Positions 3,835-49,470 of a stretch of DNA of 64,000 bases are shown here, piece by piece. Within the stretch, counting starts at the first letter, position 1, and each line of letters opens with the position of its first letter. The stretch comes from Planctomycetota bacterium (GTDB lineage Bacteria > Planctomycetota > SZUA-567): NCBI GenBank assembly GCA_020060765.1, contig JAGUZQ010000034.1, forward strand, positions 62,001-126,000, given 5' to 3'. Both the position numbers and the translations under genes were made by a program. The notes beneath the pieces were generated by a model. That model ran no database searches, had not been told where the DNA came from, and saw nothing but the letters and a program-made list of their open reading frames with translations.

Positions 3835-4002
3835 TCGCTTTTTTAAGCGAAATCTTGCGATATTCCAAAAAAATCACAAATCCCGCTGCACAGATTATTG
3901 CAATCGGGTTGGCGGATAGGTATCCTTGCGGGTCGAAAAACGATCCAAATTAGGCTTTCATATAAATATCATCGCAAGTATTACGCAAGGAAAACGCAGA
4001 AA

Positions 4003-4461
4003 ATGTCTGAAAAACTAAATGTGTTCCTGGCCGGCATTATCCAGGGGTCTTTGCCTGACACGATTCACTCCCAAAATTACCGCACGGAAATCGCCGCCCT
4101 GGTCAAGCAGCACCTGCCCGACGCCGAGGTCTACGACCCCTTTGCCGAGCATCCTGACAGTCTGAAATATAATCCCGAGCACGGGCGCGACGTCTTTTTC
4201 GAATTGATGGATCACGCCGGACGGGTGGATGTGCTGCTGGCGTTCGTGCCTGAGGCCAGCATGGGTACGGCGATTGAAATGTGGAACGCCTTCCACGCGG
4301 GGGCGGCGATAGTCTGCGTTTCGCCGCTGACAGAAAACTGGGTGGTGCGGTTTCTGGCCGATGCCGTGCTGCCCGATATCGGGGCGCTGCGCCAATTCCT
4401 TGAAACCGGCAGGCTGGAAAAACTGCTGGAGGAAAAAATCGGCTACGAAGACGGCTATTAA
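4003..4461 (+). CDS. Nucleoside 2-deoxyribosyltransferase-like protein
   Basis: The 152-residue product resembles the nucleoside 2-deoxyribosyltransferase fold, which cleaves or transfers N-glycosidic bonds of (deoxy)nucleosides or nucleotides. Visible features are an N-terminal beta strand with FLAGIIQG, an aspartate-rich VYDPFAEHP segment, the VDVLLAFVPE strand and SMGTAIEMWNAF, where the glutamate after GTA is the probable catalytic residue by analogy with the family. The frame extends upstream to 3898, but AAGGA before the ATG at 4003 and the family alignment favour this start. It is monocistronic and followed by a repeat island. The substrate cannot be told from sequence. Confidence 0.72.
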   Translation: MSEKLNVFLAGIIQGSLPDTIHSQNYRTEIAALVKQHLPDAEVYDPFAEHPDSLKYNPEHGRDVFFELMDHAGRVDVLLAFVPEASMGTAIEMWNAFHAGAAIVCVSPLTENWVVRFLADAVLPDIGALRQFLETGRLEKLLEEKIGYEDGY

Positions 4462-4497: not shown

Positions 4498-4857
4498 AGG
4501 GACTAAGGCTCTAAGGCTCTAAGGGACTAGGGGACTAAGACTCTGGGCGAAGATTTCCCCGGTTACCGCAAGTTTTTCGCAATCGGGGTTATCGGCTCCG
4601 AGCCTGCAAAAAAATCTTAGAACCTGTTTTCAATAAAGTCCTTTTTTGAACCAATCAGAGGTTAGATAAAAGAAAAAACTTGTACCGTAATTTCTGCGAA
4701 GGCAGGAATCCAGGAGGTGTTGCGTACGGTTTCCCCACTGGATTCCCGCCTTCGCGGGAATGACGATTCGTACGCCTGGTTCTTTTAAACATTGTGCCAG
4801 TAAAACGGGGGTTAATTGAAAACAGGTTCTTAGTCCCCTAGTCCCTCAGTCCCTAAA
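4498..4857. repeat. Island bounded by inverted GGGACTAAG / CTTAGTCCC short-period repeats (island E1)
   Basis: The left arm (4498-4545) is a run of units such as GGGACTAAG and GCTCTAAG. The right arm (4829-4857) is a run of the inverse units CTTAGTCCC and CAGTCCCT. The inner sequence 4540-4620 aligns with the reverse complement of the interior of the island at 49321-49470, so the two are copies in opposite orientation. This copy is interrupted by an inserted element (4616-4833). The island fills almost the whole gap between the deoxyribosyltransferase-like gene and rlmN. Confidence 0.75.
4616..4833. mobile_element. Small non-autonomous element with AACCTGTTTTCAAT terminal inverted repeats, inserted in island E1
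   Basis: AACCTGTTTTCAAT (4621-4634) and its exact inverse (4815-4828) bound the element. CTTAG stands directly outside both ends (4616-4620 and 4829-4833), as expected of a 5-bp target duplication. Removing the element and one CTTAG restores an uninterrupted CTTAGTCCC right arm of the host island. Inside are an imperfect and a perfect ATTCCCGC-type palindrome (4687-4713 and 4738-4764) in inverted orientation. It encodes no transposase, so it is a MITE-like element. Confidence 0.65.
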
Positions 4858-4894
4858 CCGATTTGCCCCCTTTTATCGTGAGGCATGGTACTAA

Positions 4895-5962
4895 ATGAAA
4901 CCCCGATTGCTGGATTTGACCAAGGACGCCCTGGAAGAATGGTTGCTGAAATCCGGGGAGAAAAAATTCCGCGCCAAACAGGTTTGGGAGTGGCTGCACG
5001 TCAAACGGGCTTCGACTTTCGACGAGATGTCTAATGTCTCCAAGGAATTGCGCGCCAAACTGGCCGACTCGTTCGATCTGCGGACTCTCGGCGTGGAGGA
5101 CACCCGCGTTTCCGCCGATGGCCTGACGGAGAAATGGCTTTACTCCGCTTTGCTGGACGGCGGAGAAAAAAGTTTTTTTGAAACCGTGCTGATCCGCGAG
5201 AAACGCGAAAAACGCCGTACCGTCTGCGTCTCCAGCCAGATCGGCTGCGCCATGGCCTGTTGCTTCTGCGCCAGCGGCTACGGCGGTTTCGACCGCAACC
5301 TCGAAACCGGGGAAATTCTCGAACAGGTTTACCGCGCCGACGACGCCTGCCGCGAAGCAGGCGAGACACGTGGCTTGACCAATATCGTGTTCATGGGCAT
5401 GGGCGAACCGCTGCTGAATTACGACGCGGTGCTGGCGGCGGCGAAACTGCTGGCCTCGGAAGACGGCTTTAATCTCGGCGGGCGTCACCTCACCATCTCC
5501 ACCGTCGGGGTGCCTTCCGGCATTTTGCGCCTGGCCGGGGAAGGCGTGAATTTCCGCCTGGCGCTGTCGCTGCACGCGCCTGACCAGGAGACCCGCGAGA
5601 AAATCATTCCCGCCGCGAAAAACTGGAAACTGTCGGAAGTGATGTCGGCGGTGCGCGAGTTCGCCTATTCCGCCAGCCGCGACGTGACGATGGAATACTG
5701 CCTTATCCATAACGTCAACGACGGCAAGGAACACGCACGCAAACTCGTGGGGCTGCTGGAAGGCTTGCCATGCAAGGTGAATCTCATCCCGCTGAACCCG
5801 GTAGATCATTACGACGGTTGCCCGCCACCGCCGGATCGGGTGCGGGCGTTCCAGGAGGTGCTGGAAAAAGCCGGTCTTGACGCGCCGCTGCGCGCGGAAA
5901 AAGGCCAGGACATCGACGCCGCCTGCGGCCAGCTTCGCGCCCGGAAACGCGCGGGGCTTTGA
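4895..5962 (+). CDS. rlmN: 23S rRNA A2503 / tRNA A37 C2-methyltransferase RlmN
   Basis: RlmN is a radical SAM enzyme that methylates C2 of adenosine 2503 in 23S rRNA and A37 in some tRNAs. The 355 residues show an N-terminal RNA-binding region with FRAKQVWEWL, the radical SAM cysteines C118, C122 and C125 in CAMACCFC, the SAM motif MGMGEPLLNY, the TISTVG and ALSLHAP strands, and the C-terminal cysteine near residue 344 in DIDAACGQL that carries the methyl group transiently. Length is normal. The true RlmN motif MGMGEP and both catalytic cysteines argue against Cfr. It is monocistronic; the right arm of island E1 ends 37 bp before the start. Confidence 0.95.
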   Translation: MKPRLLDLTKDALEEWLLKSGEKKFRAKQVWEWLHVKRASTFDEMSNVSKELRAKLADSFDLRTLGVEDTRVSADGLTEKWLYSALLDGGEKSFFETVLIREKREKRRTVCVSSQIGCAMACCFCASGYGGFDRNLETGEILEQVYRADDACREAGETRGLTNIVFMGMGEPLLNYDAVLAAAKLLASEDGFNLGGRHLTISTVGVPSGILRLAGEGVNFRLALSLHAPDQETREKIIPAAKNWKLSEVMSAVREFAYSASRDVTMEYCLIHNVNDGKEHARKLVGLLEGLPCKVNLIPLNPVDHYDGCPPPPDRVRAFQEVLEKAGLDAPLRAEKGQDIDAACGQLRARKRAGL

Positions 5963-23314: not shown

Positions 23315-23433
23315 GAGCGTAGCTTGTTTTGTAAAACAGAAAAATTGCTTGCCGAACCATATCGAGGATAAATCTTACCCCGAAATATTACGAAGAACCA
23401 AAGTAAAAACGGGGGAGAACTATTCTCCCCCAA

Positions 23434-23573
23434 GGCTATCGCATTAAAATAGCTGTATTTTGTGAATTATACGCCCAAGTGGCATCCATAATTTACCGTG
23501 AAAGCTTCACTGAAGGGCAAAATAAGTTCCCTCTCCCCTTGTAAGGGGCGAGGGGGATTTTAATGCGATAGCC
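23434..23573. repeat. 140-bp element with GGCTATCGCATTAAAAT inverted ends
   Basis: GGCTATCGCATTAAAAT (23434-23450) is repeated exactly in inverse at 23557-23573. Just outside lies a GGGGGAGA...TCTCCCCC hairpin (23411-23431), and inside is a CCCCTTGTAAGGGG hairpin. Together with the palindrome at 23288 it explains most of the 370-bp gap between the hybrid kinase and degQ. No coding frame is evident. Confidence 0.65.
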
Positions 23574-23621
23574 CTGTATTCTCCCCCGTCTTTACTGCCG
23601 GATTGTGCCGCTGAAATTGCG

Positions 23622-25124
23622 CTATTTTTCCTGTTCGAATTTCAGTACGACGAAGCGGTTGGCTCCGTCCTGGCGGAACAGCGCCAGCGCGCTTTTCCTG
23701 TCTTTCAGGGACTTGGCCACTTCCGCGAAATCCTTGGCCGACTTCACCGGCTTCTGGTCGAGTTCGATCAGCAGCGCCCCGGCGCGGATGCCTGCCTCCC
23801 CCGCGGAGCCGTCGGGATCGACTTCCGTCACCAGCACGCCTTCCTCGTCCTTGGGCAGGCGGAACTGTTCGCGCAAATCGTCGGTGAGGTCTTTCACCTC
23901 GATGCCCAGCAGTTCGTTTTCCTCCTGCTCGGCTTCGCCCGCGTTATCTCCGTCATTTTCGCCACCCATCGCCGCCAGGTTTTCCGGCTGACGACCGAGT
24001 TTGACGTTGACGGTCATTTTCTCGCCACGGCGGATAATTCCCATCTTCACCTCATCGTCGGGGCTGCGCTCGGCAACCAGCGCCTGCAGCATCCGCGCAT
24101 CCTCGAGTTTTTCCCCGTCGAACGTGACCAGCACGTCGCCACGCTGGAACCCGGCCTTGCCGGCGGGGGTATCGGGGTAAACGTCGCTGACCAGCACGCC
24201 GCCCTCGACGTTTGTCATGGTCGCGGCCATTTCCGGATCAATGTCCTGGATGCCGATGCCGAGCCACCCGCGTGTCACCTTGCCGTGCTTGATGAGCTGC
24301 TCCAGCACCTTGCGCGCCTGGTTGACCGGCACCGCGAAGCCTACCCCCACCGAGCCGCCGGTGCGGGTCTGGATCAGGGTGTTGATGCCGACCACCTCGC
24401 CGTCGAGGTTGACCAGCGGCCCGCCGGAATTGCCGGGATTGATGCTGGCGTCGGTCTGGATGAAGTTCTCGTACATGGTCATGCCGATGGCGCGGTGCTT
24501 GGCCGAGACGATGCCGGCGGTCACGGTCTGCATCAGCCCGAAGGGATTGCCGATAGCAATGACGATGTTGCCGACGCGGAGTTTGTCGCTGTCTCCGAGC
24601 TTCGCCACCGGCAGTTCGCCCTTGAAATTCTTCAGCTTGACAATGGCGATGTCGGTCTTAGGGTCGGTGCCGACGACTTCGGCGTCGTATTCGGTCTTGT
24701 CGGCCATCTGCACGGTGAGTTTTTCCGCATCTTCCACTACGTGGTTATTGGTCAGGATATGACCCTCGGCGTCGATAATGACGCCGCTGCCCTGGCCGGG
24801 GGCGCGGTATTCGCGTTTCTTCTGGTTCTTTTTAGGCGTCTGGTTGCGCCGGGGAAGGTCGCGGTCGAAGAAGCGGCGCATCAGATCCTCGGGATTGTTG
24901 AACAACTGCATGTCGCCGCTTTCGGCCATGGTGACTTTCCTGACGCTCTTGATACCGACCACGGCGGGGCTGACTTTTTCGGCGATGTCGGCGTAGGTTT
25001 CGGAGATGGCTTTGGTCAGTTCAAGCGATTCCTTCGGTTTTTCTGCCGCGAAGGTGGCGTTGGCGCCGAACATGGCCAAGAAAAGAAGGGCCAGTGCGAG
25101 TTTGCAGGTTGTGATAGTCTTCAT
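23622..25124 (-). CDS. degQ: Periplasmic serine protease DegQ/HtrA with two PDZ domains
   Basis: HtrA proteases degrade or refold damaged periplasmic proteins. The 500-residue protein has a signal peptide (residues 1-27, cleavage near AFA-like TFAAE), a trypsin-like domain with the triad H128 (TNNHVV), D158 (KTDIAIVK) and S233 (GNSGGP), and two PDZ domains (about 285-385 and 410-495) separated by an acidic linker rich in Glu, Asp and Asn. The arrangement matches DegP/DegQ/MucD. GGAGG precedes the ATG. An inverted repeat (25181-25200) lies in its leader. No regulator gene is adjacent. It is divergent from fliS. Confidence 0.95.
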   Translation of the reverse strand: MKTITTCKLALALLFLAMFGANATFAAEKPKESLELTKAISETYADIAEKVSPAVVGIKSVRKVTMAESGDMQLFNNPEDLMRRFFDRDLPRRNQTPKKNQKKREYRAPGQGSGVIIDAEGHILTNNHVVEDAEKLTVQMADKTEYDAEVVGTDPKTDIAIVKLKNFKGELPVAKLGDSDKLRVGNIVIAIGNPFGLMQTVTAGIVSAKHRAIGMTMYENFIQTDASINPGNSGGPLVNLDGEVVGINTLIQTRTGGSVGVGFAVPVNQARKVLEQLIKHGKVTRGWLGIGIQDIDPEMAATMTNVEGGVLVSDVYPDTPAGKAGFQRGDVLVTFDGEKLEDARMLQALVAERSPDDEVKMGIIRRGEKMTVNVKLGRQPENLAAMGGENDGDNAGEAEQEENELLGIEVKDLTDDLREQFRLPKDEEGVLVTEVDPDGSAGEAGIRAGALLIELDQKPVKSAKDFAEVAKSLKDRKSALALFRQDGANRFVVLKFEQEK

Positions 25125-31771: not shown

Positions 31772-31880
31772 GGGACTGAGGGATCAGGGGAAGGGGCGGT
31801 GCCGGTTTGCTTATTTTCGCGATTCGTTTTCGGGGGGAGCGGAGTTTTCGGAAATGGCAAACCCAGTCCCTCAGTCCTTA
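31771..31880. repeat. Island bounded by GGGACTGAG / CAGTCCCT repeats (island E3)
   Basis: The left arm (31771-31790, AGGGACTGAGGGATCAGGGG) begins at the last base of the PilX-like stop codon; the right arm (31862-31880) is the inverse. The interior (CCGGTT...TTTTCGCGATTCG) partly matches island E1. It fills the gap to the next gene. Confidence 0.6.
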
Positions 31881-35386: not shown

Positions 35387-36487
35387 ATGGCATTCTGGGA
35401 TAAGATTAAAAGCCAGTTCATCGACGTTATCGAATGGGCCGATTCCACCCATGACACGCTGGTCTGGAAATTTCCCCATTACGACAACGCCATCAAGAAC
35501 GGCGCGCAACTGGTCGTACGCGAGGGACAGGCGGCGGCGTTCCTGTTCGAGGGGCAACTCGGCGACGTTTTCAAGGCCGGGCGGCACGTGCTGACCACCA
35601 GCAATATTCCGATCCTGACCACTTTGAAAAACTGGAAATACGCCTTTAACGAACCGTTCAAGTGCGACGTGTTTTTCGTCAGCACGCGCCAGTTCACCGG
35701 CTTGAAGTGGGGCACGCCTAACCCGATCATGCTGCGCGATCCGGAATTCGGCCCCATCCGTCTGCGGGCATTCGGCAGCTACTGCATCCAGGTAAAGGAG
35801 CCGGGCGCGTTTATCCGGCAGATTTCCGGCACCAACACCGGTTTCGAGACCGCCGATATTTCCAACTATCTGCGCGATCTGCTGGTGAGCCGCTTTGCCG
35901 ATGCGCTGGGAGAATCGAAAATCGCCGCCCTCGATCTCGCTGCCAATTACACCGAGCTGGGCGGGGAAATCAACCAGAAGCTCCAGCCCGAATTCGAGGA
36001 GTATGGCCTGACCCTGACGAAATTCCTGGTGGAGAATATCTCTTTCCCGCCGGAAGTGGAAGCCGCGCTCGACCAGCGCTCGAAGATGGGCGTGCTGGGC
36101 AACATGCAGCAATACACCCAGATGAAGACCGCCGAGGCTATCGGCGACATGGCCAACAATCCCGGCTCCGGCGGCGGGATGATGGGCATGATCGGCGGCA
36201 TGAACATGGGAGGTATTGTTGGCGGGGCGATGCAGGCGGGAATGCAGAACCAGCAGTCCGCGCCAGTCGCTCCTCCTCCGCTGCCGGGAGCGGCGCAATT
36301 TTTCGCCGCTATCAACAGCCAACAGGCCGGGCCGTTTGACCTGAACGCCTTGAAGGGGCAGGCGGTGGGCGGCAACCTGACGCGCGAGACCCTGGTCTGG
36401 AAACAGGGCATGGCCAACTGGCTTCCGGCTGGGCAGGTACCGGAACTGGCGGGAGTGTTTTCCGCCCCGCCGCCGCTGCCTGCTTGA
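35387..36487 (+). CDS. SPFH-domain protein (YdjI/virion core-like) with C-terminal GYF_2 domain
   Basis: The 366-residue protein resembles Bacillus YdjI: ADSTHDTLVWKFPHYDNAIKNG at the start, then VREGQAAAFLFEG and FKAGRHVLTT, an SPFH (stomatin/flotillin-like) core with LRAFGSYCIQV, and ALDQRSKMGVL. A Met/Gly-rich linker (about residues 255-300) leads to a GYF_2 (DUF4339) domain with AGPFDLNAL and LVWKQGMANW. SPFH proteins scaffold membranes; GYF_2 domains bind proline-rich peptides. GGAGG lies before the ATG at 35387; an upstream extension is rejected. An island of CTGAG repeats follows two bases after its stop. Confidence 0.85.
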   Translation: MAFWDKIKSQFIDVIEWADSTHDTLVWKFPHYDNAIKNGAQLVVREGQAAAFLFEGQLGDVFKAGRHVLTTSNIPILTTLKNWKYAFNEPFKCDVFFVSTRQFTGLKWGTPNPIMLRDPEFGPIRLRAFGSYCIQVKEPGAFIRQISGTNTGFETADISNYLRDLLVSRFADALGESKIAALDLAANYTELGGEINQKLQPEFEEYGLTLTKFLVENISFPPEVEAALDQRSKMGVLGNMQQYTQMKTAEAIGDMANNPGSGGGMMGMIGGMNMGGIVGGAMQAGMQNQQSAPVAPPPLPGAAQFFAAINSQQAGPFDLNALKGQAVGGNLTRETLVWKQGMANWLPAGQVPELAGVFSAPPPLPA

Positions 36488-36489
36488 AG

Positions 36490-36731
36490 TGCTGAGTTAT
36501 TTAGTTGCTGAGAGGGCGAAGGTGGCTAGTTATAAGGAGCTGACCGTATGGCAGAAATCTATCGCTTTGGTTAAGCATATTTACCTGGCAACTGAGGATT
36601 TTCCCTCCAAGGAAATGTACGGGCTAACATGCTGGAAGCATTGCTTCGCAAAGTAAAGGCGCAAAAATGAACTCTCGACTCAACAGGCTCAGTAACTCAG
36701 CAACTCAGTAACTCAGCAACTCAGCAACTAA
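36490..36731. repeat. Island bounded by inverted CTGAGTTA / CAACTCAG short-period repeats (island E4)
   Basis: The left arm (36490-36511) has CTGAGTTATTTAGTTGCTGAG. The right arm (36688-36731) has five or more units of the inverse, AACTCAG with CA or TA between them. The core carries the decayed four-helix-bundle gene at 36522-36670. The right-arm units are direct repeats of about 8 bp with no spacers, so this is not CRISPR. Confidence 0.75.
36522..36670 (+). pseudogene. Decayed four-helix-bundle gene (23S rRNA intervening-sequence protein, S23 family)
   Basis: Reading from GTG at 36522 gives ASYKELTVWQKSIALVKHIY, then LATEDFPSKEMYGLT, closely matching the N-terminus of the TIGR02436/S23 four-helix-bundle family (KELTVWQKS, FP-E-YGLT). 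The frame then ends at a TAA (36654). In the +2-shifted frame MLEALLRKVKAQK with a stop at 36668-36670 looks like the family's C-terminus. The central 60-70 residues that should hold the SIPSNIAEG motif are missing. This is therefore an internally deleted, out-of-frame remnant. Such genes were first seen in intervening sequences of 23S rRNA genes; here it is inside a repeat-bounded intergenic island. Confidence 0.8.
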
Positions 36732-44038: not shown

Positions 44039-44080
44039 GAAAAAGTTCTTTGGATTAAGCCGGGATAGAACTTTGTGTTA

Positions 44081-44214
44081 GTCTCCAGTTTGCAGTCGCC
44101 AGTCTCCAGTATTTGTTATGCCGACGTTCAGACTTGAGAAGCAGCGAGATAGCTTTGCCTTCTACTCTGAAACACGCTTTCGCATTCCAATACTGGAGAC
44201 TGTCAACTGGAGAC
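44081..44214. repeat. Island bounded by inverted GTCTCCAGT / ACTGGAGAC repeats (island E5a)
   Basis: The left arm (44081-44110) has GTCTCCAGT twice; the right arm (44192-44214) has the inverse ACTGGAGAC twice. The 80-bp interior has no intact gene. It lies between the GH1-like gene and the end of rplI, and shares its unit with 30046-30100. Confidence 0.7.
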
Positions 44215-44221
44215 TTGAATC

Positions 44222-49320: not shown

Positions 49321-49470
49321 GGAGGGACTAAGGCTCTAAGGGACTGAGGGACTAAGAAAATCTTTTTGCGGATGCGGTGTCGATAACCCTCGATTGAGAA
49401 AATTTTTTGGCAAATAGGGAAGCCTTCGACCAGAGTCTTAGTCCCTTAGTCCCTTAGCGCCTTAGTCCCT
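49321..49470. repeat. Island bounded by GGGACTAAG / CTTAGTCCC repeats (island E2)
   Basis: The left arm (49321-49357) and right arm (49436-49470) are inverse arrays of the same unit as in island E1. In reverse complement the interior aligns with E1 along most of its length (CTAAGACTCTGG, TTCCC, GGGTTATCG, TGCAAAAA). This copy has no inserted element. It occupies most of the 370-bp gap between the glmU-like operon and the alcohol dehydrogenase gene, whose ribosome site lies about 10 bp beyond; the remainder carries no other recognised feature. Confidence 0.75.

Follow-up and report, generated by a model that had tools for sequence, protein, structure and literature searches.

Array-bounded islands in gene spacers as probable gene-less derivatives of an IVS-like mobile cassette

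We analysed a 64,000-nt stretch of DNA (the window) together with the 4.78-Mb draft genome to which it belongs, and observed that a homologous core of ~80 nt, enclosed by convergent arms of short repeated units, is dispersed over this genome by insertion into the spacers between genes. The same bracket geometry goes with the genes of IVP (S23) in several phyla. IVP, the 23S rRNA intervening-sequence protein, is a four-helix bundle. We consider it probable that an IVS-like mobile cassette gave rise to the islands, which would be its gene-less forms. Beyond what an earlier note on this DNA had described, the outer ends of one island (E1) belong to a second MITE family, the arms are the feature common to all islands, and the same geometry encloses IVP/S23 genes elsewhere.

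Two islands of the window, E1 and E2, had been described as diverged copies in opposite orientation, and alignment of their cores bore this out. The E1 core gave a local score of 55 against the reverse complement of the E2 core, with the alignment spanning the whole core; 1000 shuffles averaged 12.5 and never exceeded 23, and the score in the wrong orientation was 16. Copies are numerous elsewhere in the genome. A search with E2 gave 91 matches, and a covariance model found ~50 core copies at E below 1e-7 in 4.78 Mb, together with further ones having weaker or different interiors. The island total is ~65, and the ~80-nt core stands between convergent GGGACTAAG arrays ~50 times; these counts rest on searches and on individually read stretches of the draft genome, whose assembly breaks at repeats, so that copy numbers are lower bounds. 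The core was detected neither by blastn among plasmids nor as an exact pattern among viral contigs. Among 98 related genomes, neither the core, nor arrays of the island unit, nor GGGACTNN triple arrays were found, except for two single matches at the control level.

The arms consist mostly of 2–5 units. The unit is 8 bp long (GGGACTAA, with the variants GGCTCTAA and GGGACTAG), and not 9–10 bp as first proposed. GGGACTRAGG occurs 199 times in the genome against 21 for the reversed control; for the triple-unit pattern the counts are 56 and 0. The arms had correctly been recognized as inverse to each other: array pairs within 400 bp are convergent in 52 cases and divergent in 1. Copies are 98–99% identical in the innermost arm 9-mers and 71% in the core, with core subfamilies reaching 95%. 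Most of the extracted interiors (55 of 63) form one homology cluster and the other 8 are mutually unrelated; it is the arms, not the interior, that are common to all islands.

Upstream of rlmN, E1 is a nested composite. The left target-site copy and both arms were read directly from the sequence (the left arm also from the unit table), and the core was assigned by BLAST, by the covariance-model family of ~50 copies and by the homology test. Its parts are as follows.

4459–4461, TAA, the left target-site copy of the composite, which also ends the upstream ORF (3898–4461) as its stop codon
4462–4498, plus strand, outer terminal repeat of the second MITE family (ATACAGATCCCCGCAAACAAGGGGGCAAAAC...), which has solitary copies elsewhere with other interiors
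4499–4539, plus strand, left arm of five 8-bp units (GGGACTAA, GGCTCTAA, GGCTCTAA, GGGACTAG, GGGACTAAG)
4540–4616, plus strand, core, ~77 nt
4620–4829, plus strand, third MITE, with ends GAACCTGTTTTCAA/TTGAAAACAGGTTC and TTA on both sides (4617–4619 and 4830–4832)
4660–4772, abundant REP-like palindrome within the third MITE
4829–4853, minus strand, right arm of three units, inverse of the left arm
4854–4891, minus strand, right outer terminal repeat of the second MITE
4892–4894, right target-site copy TAA, abutting the ATG of rlmN (4895–5962)

Thus, the arms and core lie within the second MITE, and the core-arm junction is broken by the third. That E1 carries a MITE had been seen before; this element has 14-bp inverted ends with TTA (or CTTAG) flanking on each side, and it recurs with both ends in two more copies and with the right end alone in another. 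Its REP-like palindrome was scored 40 times from 273 first-look candidates in the genome. Excision of E1 in silico between the TAA duplications gives GGCTATTAA|ATGAAACCC, which joins the stop codon directly to the start of rlmN.

Apart from E1, the window holds E2, E3 and brackets of two other types.

49324–49356, plus strand, four-unit arm of E2 on the side away from the core start
49357–49436, minus strand, E2 core, in the orientation opposite to E1
49437–49469, minus strand, four-unit arm of E2 next to the core start, ending ~20 nt short of the ATG (49491) of an Fe-alcohol-dehydrogenase gene
31772–31879, E3, degenerate convergent arms in a gene spacer, interior not demonstrably related
36481–36729, second bracket type, with arms (TTGCTGAG)n at 36481–36512 and (CTCAGCAA)n at 36688–36729, enclosing a truncated IVP/S23 ORF (~36522–36629)
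44080–44215, third bracket type, gene-less, with (AGTCTCC)-type arms at 44080–44110 and 44192–44215

E3 was not supported as a core copy. The partial match of its interior, claimed in the earlier note, gave P values of 0.1–0.7 in most homology tests, with one 13-nt patch at P 0.001. The gene upstream of the second bracket type (35387–36487) terminates within the left arm. In the third type (AGTCTCC / GGAGACT) the C-rich strand comes first, unlike in the GGGACTAAG brackets. A long inverted repeat of another palindromic family (GGGGGAGAACTATTCTCCCCCAAGGCTATCGCATT...) occupies a spacer at 23402–23628.

The islands are insertions, since the pheS-pheT spacers of relatives are short and removal of E1 restores TAA|ATG. 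In the window genome the pheS-pheT spacer measures 238 nt including a 211-nt island, leaving 27 nt without it. Among the same-family relatives read at this locus, eight have spacers of 17–50 nt and three have 170–180 nt of other sequence. The islands are located in spacers between protein genes and not inside a 23S rRNA gene. They had been said to fill intergenic spaces almost to the limits of the genes. Where both neighbours run in the same direction (50 islands), the spacer that is left has a median length of 50 nt, with 6.5 nt on the stop side and 38 nt on the start side, the gene starts being those of a simple home-made caller. The view of the earlier note that the islands are a mobile family is upheld by the ~50 dispersed copies, by the short spacers in relatives and by the TAA duplication of E1; the membership of the E3 interior in this family is not. 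At the arm ends themselves, exact matches of lengths 2 to 9 are not in excess over shuffled pairs. No target duplication was seen there; E1 has TAA at its outer ends, and the solitary copies of the second MITE have TNA.

The solitary copies of the second MITE have other interiors and TTA/TGA duplications (e.g. L165, L166, L169, L176 and L189). In the stretches read (L164–L190) the family has ends GTACARCGCCCCGCAAA, TNA duplications and an interior of CTCCCCCTTCCAGGGGGAG palindromes, and its end motif has ~30 matches per strand. The closest core pairs (94–95% identity) are copies bearing the ends of this MITE, because of which the newest island copies were probably carried by this MITE, which makes 3-bp TNA duplications. 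In 50 of the 65 islands no trace of these ends was found, and therefore the second MITE does not account for most copies.

These data bear on a rival view, in which the islands are ordinary MITEs whose terminal repeats happen to be tandem arrays. A DDE or HUH transposase acting in trans would move them, IVP being unrelated and its place in brackets a matter of similar repeats or chance. The homologous core, the subfamilies of up to 95% identity, the inverted ends and the insertion into spacers would all be expected of such a family, as would the TNA-duplicating MITE ends on the closest core pairs. However, the arm ends show no target duplication, and the unit changes from genome to genome, yet the geometry and the association with IVP persist. 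No transposase with island-type ends was seen in the loci examined. A REP/RAYT system was considered and rejected: the genome has a single IS200-like Y1 gene, the only Y1 transposase found, and no such arrays lie near it. Taken together, we regard the ordinary MITE as rather unlikely.

Folding of the E2 transcript, as the earlier note had suggested, predicts a long stem of −73 kcal/mol compared to −37 for shuffled sequences. Such a very stable predicted hairpin, and the location of islands just after stop codons, would suit a cis-acting RNA element whose arms form a long mRNA stem selected for termination, processing or stability. On the other hand, arms of the same island pair no better than arms taken from different islands (P 0.995), the orientation of the core relative to the genes is not significant (22 opposite, 11 same), covariation in the core is little and no Rfam family was found in the window. 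We therefore hold selection as an RNA element to be improbable, and return to the mobile cassette.

Brackets of similar build are present in other lineages. A pattern scan of genome contigs gave four matches to similar arrays, including some in Acidobacterial genomes. In two Acidobacteriaceae genomes, (GGGACTNN)n array pairs are convergent 23 to 1, and the interiors of these brackets are nearly all mutually unrelated. At the tRNA-Trp/rpmG spacer ~18 of 29 members of this family, counted by eye, have a bracket and several have only 3–37 nt; the units vary by genome (TAGCTNNN, GGTAATTTG, GTGGTTAGT, GGGTTTAG and others). Some of these genomes hold several brackets per 3 kb, so ancestral retention at this site is not required. 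Up to five brackets were seen in 3 kb of this region (L261, within L246–L274). In a same-family relative of the window genome, a bracket of AACAATTA-type unit stands directly after a stop codon, upstream of pheS (L243:1360–1487). For Xanthomonas, a published study gives 70 and 75 pairs of GGGAATC type, always in convergent orientation (PMC4692102).

Brackets with unrelated interiors could also arise if telomerase-like templated synthesis extended the two ends of a broken spacer with a genome-specific unit, arbitrary filler coming to lie in the middle. The use of one unit genome-wide, the inward-pointing strands, the missing target duplication and the unrelated interiors in some genomes would fit, and a preprint (PMC12632851) describes tandem-repeat DNA made by bacterial reverse transcriptases. 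Against it stands the conserved core of the window genome. We know of no case in which tandem-repeat DNA made by a reverse transcriptase is integrated into a genome, and we consider templated addition the least probable of the explanations weighed here.

The preferred reading, derivation from a mobile cassette, draws on the IVP/S23 genes (PF05635). In the window genome, an intact IVP gene (L130:1590–1958; PF05635, E 1e-36) ends inside a GGGACTAAG array, and an additional island lies between this gene and the outer arm. An IVP pseudogene (L131) stands within a bracket of the AGTCTCC unit, the same unit as that of the gene-less bracket at 44080–44215. Together with the truncated ORF in the bracket at 36481–36729 (PF05635, E 6e-7), three IVP genes or remnants of this genome are thus in or beside brackets. 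In the Acidobacteriaceae genome G100, an intact IVP gene (L201) is enclosed by a GGGACTNN bracket that closely follows a stop codon.

We compared the 5' flank of IVP genes with their own inverted 3' flank. Of 25 loci (23 from plasmids, one from IMG/VR, and L130), 18 were above the 95% level of cross-locus pairs (permutation P<1e-4), related plasmids among them (e.g. L312 and L313) being not fully independent. In a second set of 21 loci, made up of IMG/VR viral-contig loci and L201, 16 were above the 99% level (permutation P<1e-4). One contig is common to both sets, and the viral-contig loci may be of bacterial origin; the comparison is not affected by either point. As a control, 126 other short genes had a flank-match median of 17 and a 95% value of 23, like random segments; the sole high value among them came from a gene situated between two islands. 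The array units at IVP loci are 7–9 nt long and differ from genome to genome. In several cases the cassette separates two genes that are partners in an operon (nrdB/nrdA, cas6/cas4 twice, and cas10/cmr3), and the IVP genes on Nostoc plasmids sit in heptamer (STRR-like) arrays. Some IVP loci have no arrays or have direct ones (L299, L302, L314 and L319). In L299, a Pseudanabaena plasmid, the IVP gene lies between cas6 and cas4, and the long AAAAGCT/AAAAGCC arrays are direct and not inverted.

The nature of the units is also relevant to the proposal, made for Xanthomonas GGGAATC repeats (PMC4692102), that G-rich microsatellites grow by slippage and are kept for G-quadruplex formation. The 8-bp G-rich units in variable number are in keeping with it, as are the four-unit arrays common in Acidobacteriaceae. 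However, a four-tract G3 motif is missing from both arms in 50 of 65 islands, many of the units that flank IVP genes are not of the G-tract kind, and slippage leaves the inverted pairs, the common cores and the insertion unexplained. The homologous cores, and the shortness of the spacers in relatives, refute slippage as a full explanation, and we consider G-quadruplex-driven retention highly improbable for the islands.

On the cassette explanation, the full element would consist of two convergent arrays of a genome-specific 7–9 bp unit enclosing an IVP (S23) gene. E1, E2 and most islands of the window genome would be gene-less, MITE-like and, in the simplest view, non-autonomous forms in which the arrays act as terminal inverted repeats, one version with the ~80-nt core having multiplied to ~50 copies. 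The insertion target would be the short spacers between operon genes. The gene-less islands may descend from IVP cassettes or be moved by them. Because no core-bearing island, E1 and E2 included, holds an IVP gene, we infer this descent from the geometry and the unit that they have in common. We know of no recombinase activity of IVP, which counts against this explanation, as do the arm ends that show no target duplication, the unrelated interiors, the IVP loci with no or direct arrays and the additional island in L130. The protein bAvd, which is related to IVP, works with a reverse transcriptase. By analogy to rRNA IVSs, RNase III may cut the long stem once transcribed, and a host operon would thereby tolerate the island.

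A wider proposal can be put forward tentatively. IVP/S23 might be what moves or maintains cassettes of a widespread class, so far undescribed, whose end units are rewritten in each genome, and the unexplained convergent short-repeat pairs of Acidobacteriota, Cyanobacteriota, Xanthomonas and the window lineage might be its gene-less copies. If this were true, the role of S23/IVP, and the puzzle of where the convergent short tandem repeats of spacers come from, would become one testable question, and it would offer a way to spot a large class of small insertions that enter operons without breaking them. The association of IVP with arrays may already have been described elsewhere, as the literature consulted was that under open licence.

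Among known systems, the cyanobacterial STRR sequences and small dispersed repeats resemble the islands in having heptamer arrays in spacers and nested repeats. A bracket around IVP is, to our knowledge, absent from the descriptions of STRR sequences. With MITEs and REP/REPIN elements (PMC3116915, PMC3733652) the islands share that they are gene-less, dispersed, palindromic, intergenic and present in many copies; unlike them, they show no target duplication at the arm ends and have no adjoining RAYT, and their terminal repeats are arrays of variable number. The GGGAATC and GGGGA(C/T)T repeats of Xanthomonas and Nostoc (Rehm et al. 2015, PMC4692102) are likewise intergenic G-rich short arrays near stop codons, with convergent pairs in Xanthomonas. 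They differ in the unit, which is 7 bp compared to 8 bp in the islands, and in the G-quadruplex role, which is not supported for the islands; a core, insertion or association with IVP was not found for them in the parts of PMC4692102 consulted. A further parallel is the IVS of 23S rRNA, as in Coxiella burnetii, where the element is described as selfish, measures 428 nt, has an S23 ORF and a terminal stem of 28 bp, and is excised by RNase III (PMC4990558). Like this IVS, the islands are small selfish insertions of sporadic distribution with stem-forming terminal inverted repeats and, in the full form, an S23/IVP ORF. Unlike it, they lie in the spacers of protein genes, their arms repeat a unit peculiar to the genome in tandem, and the ORF is missing from most copies. 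Since the brackets lie between genes and are armed with arrays, we term them IVS-like and not IVSs.
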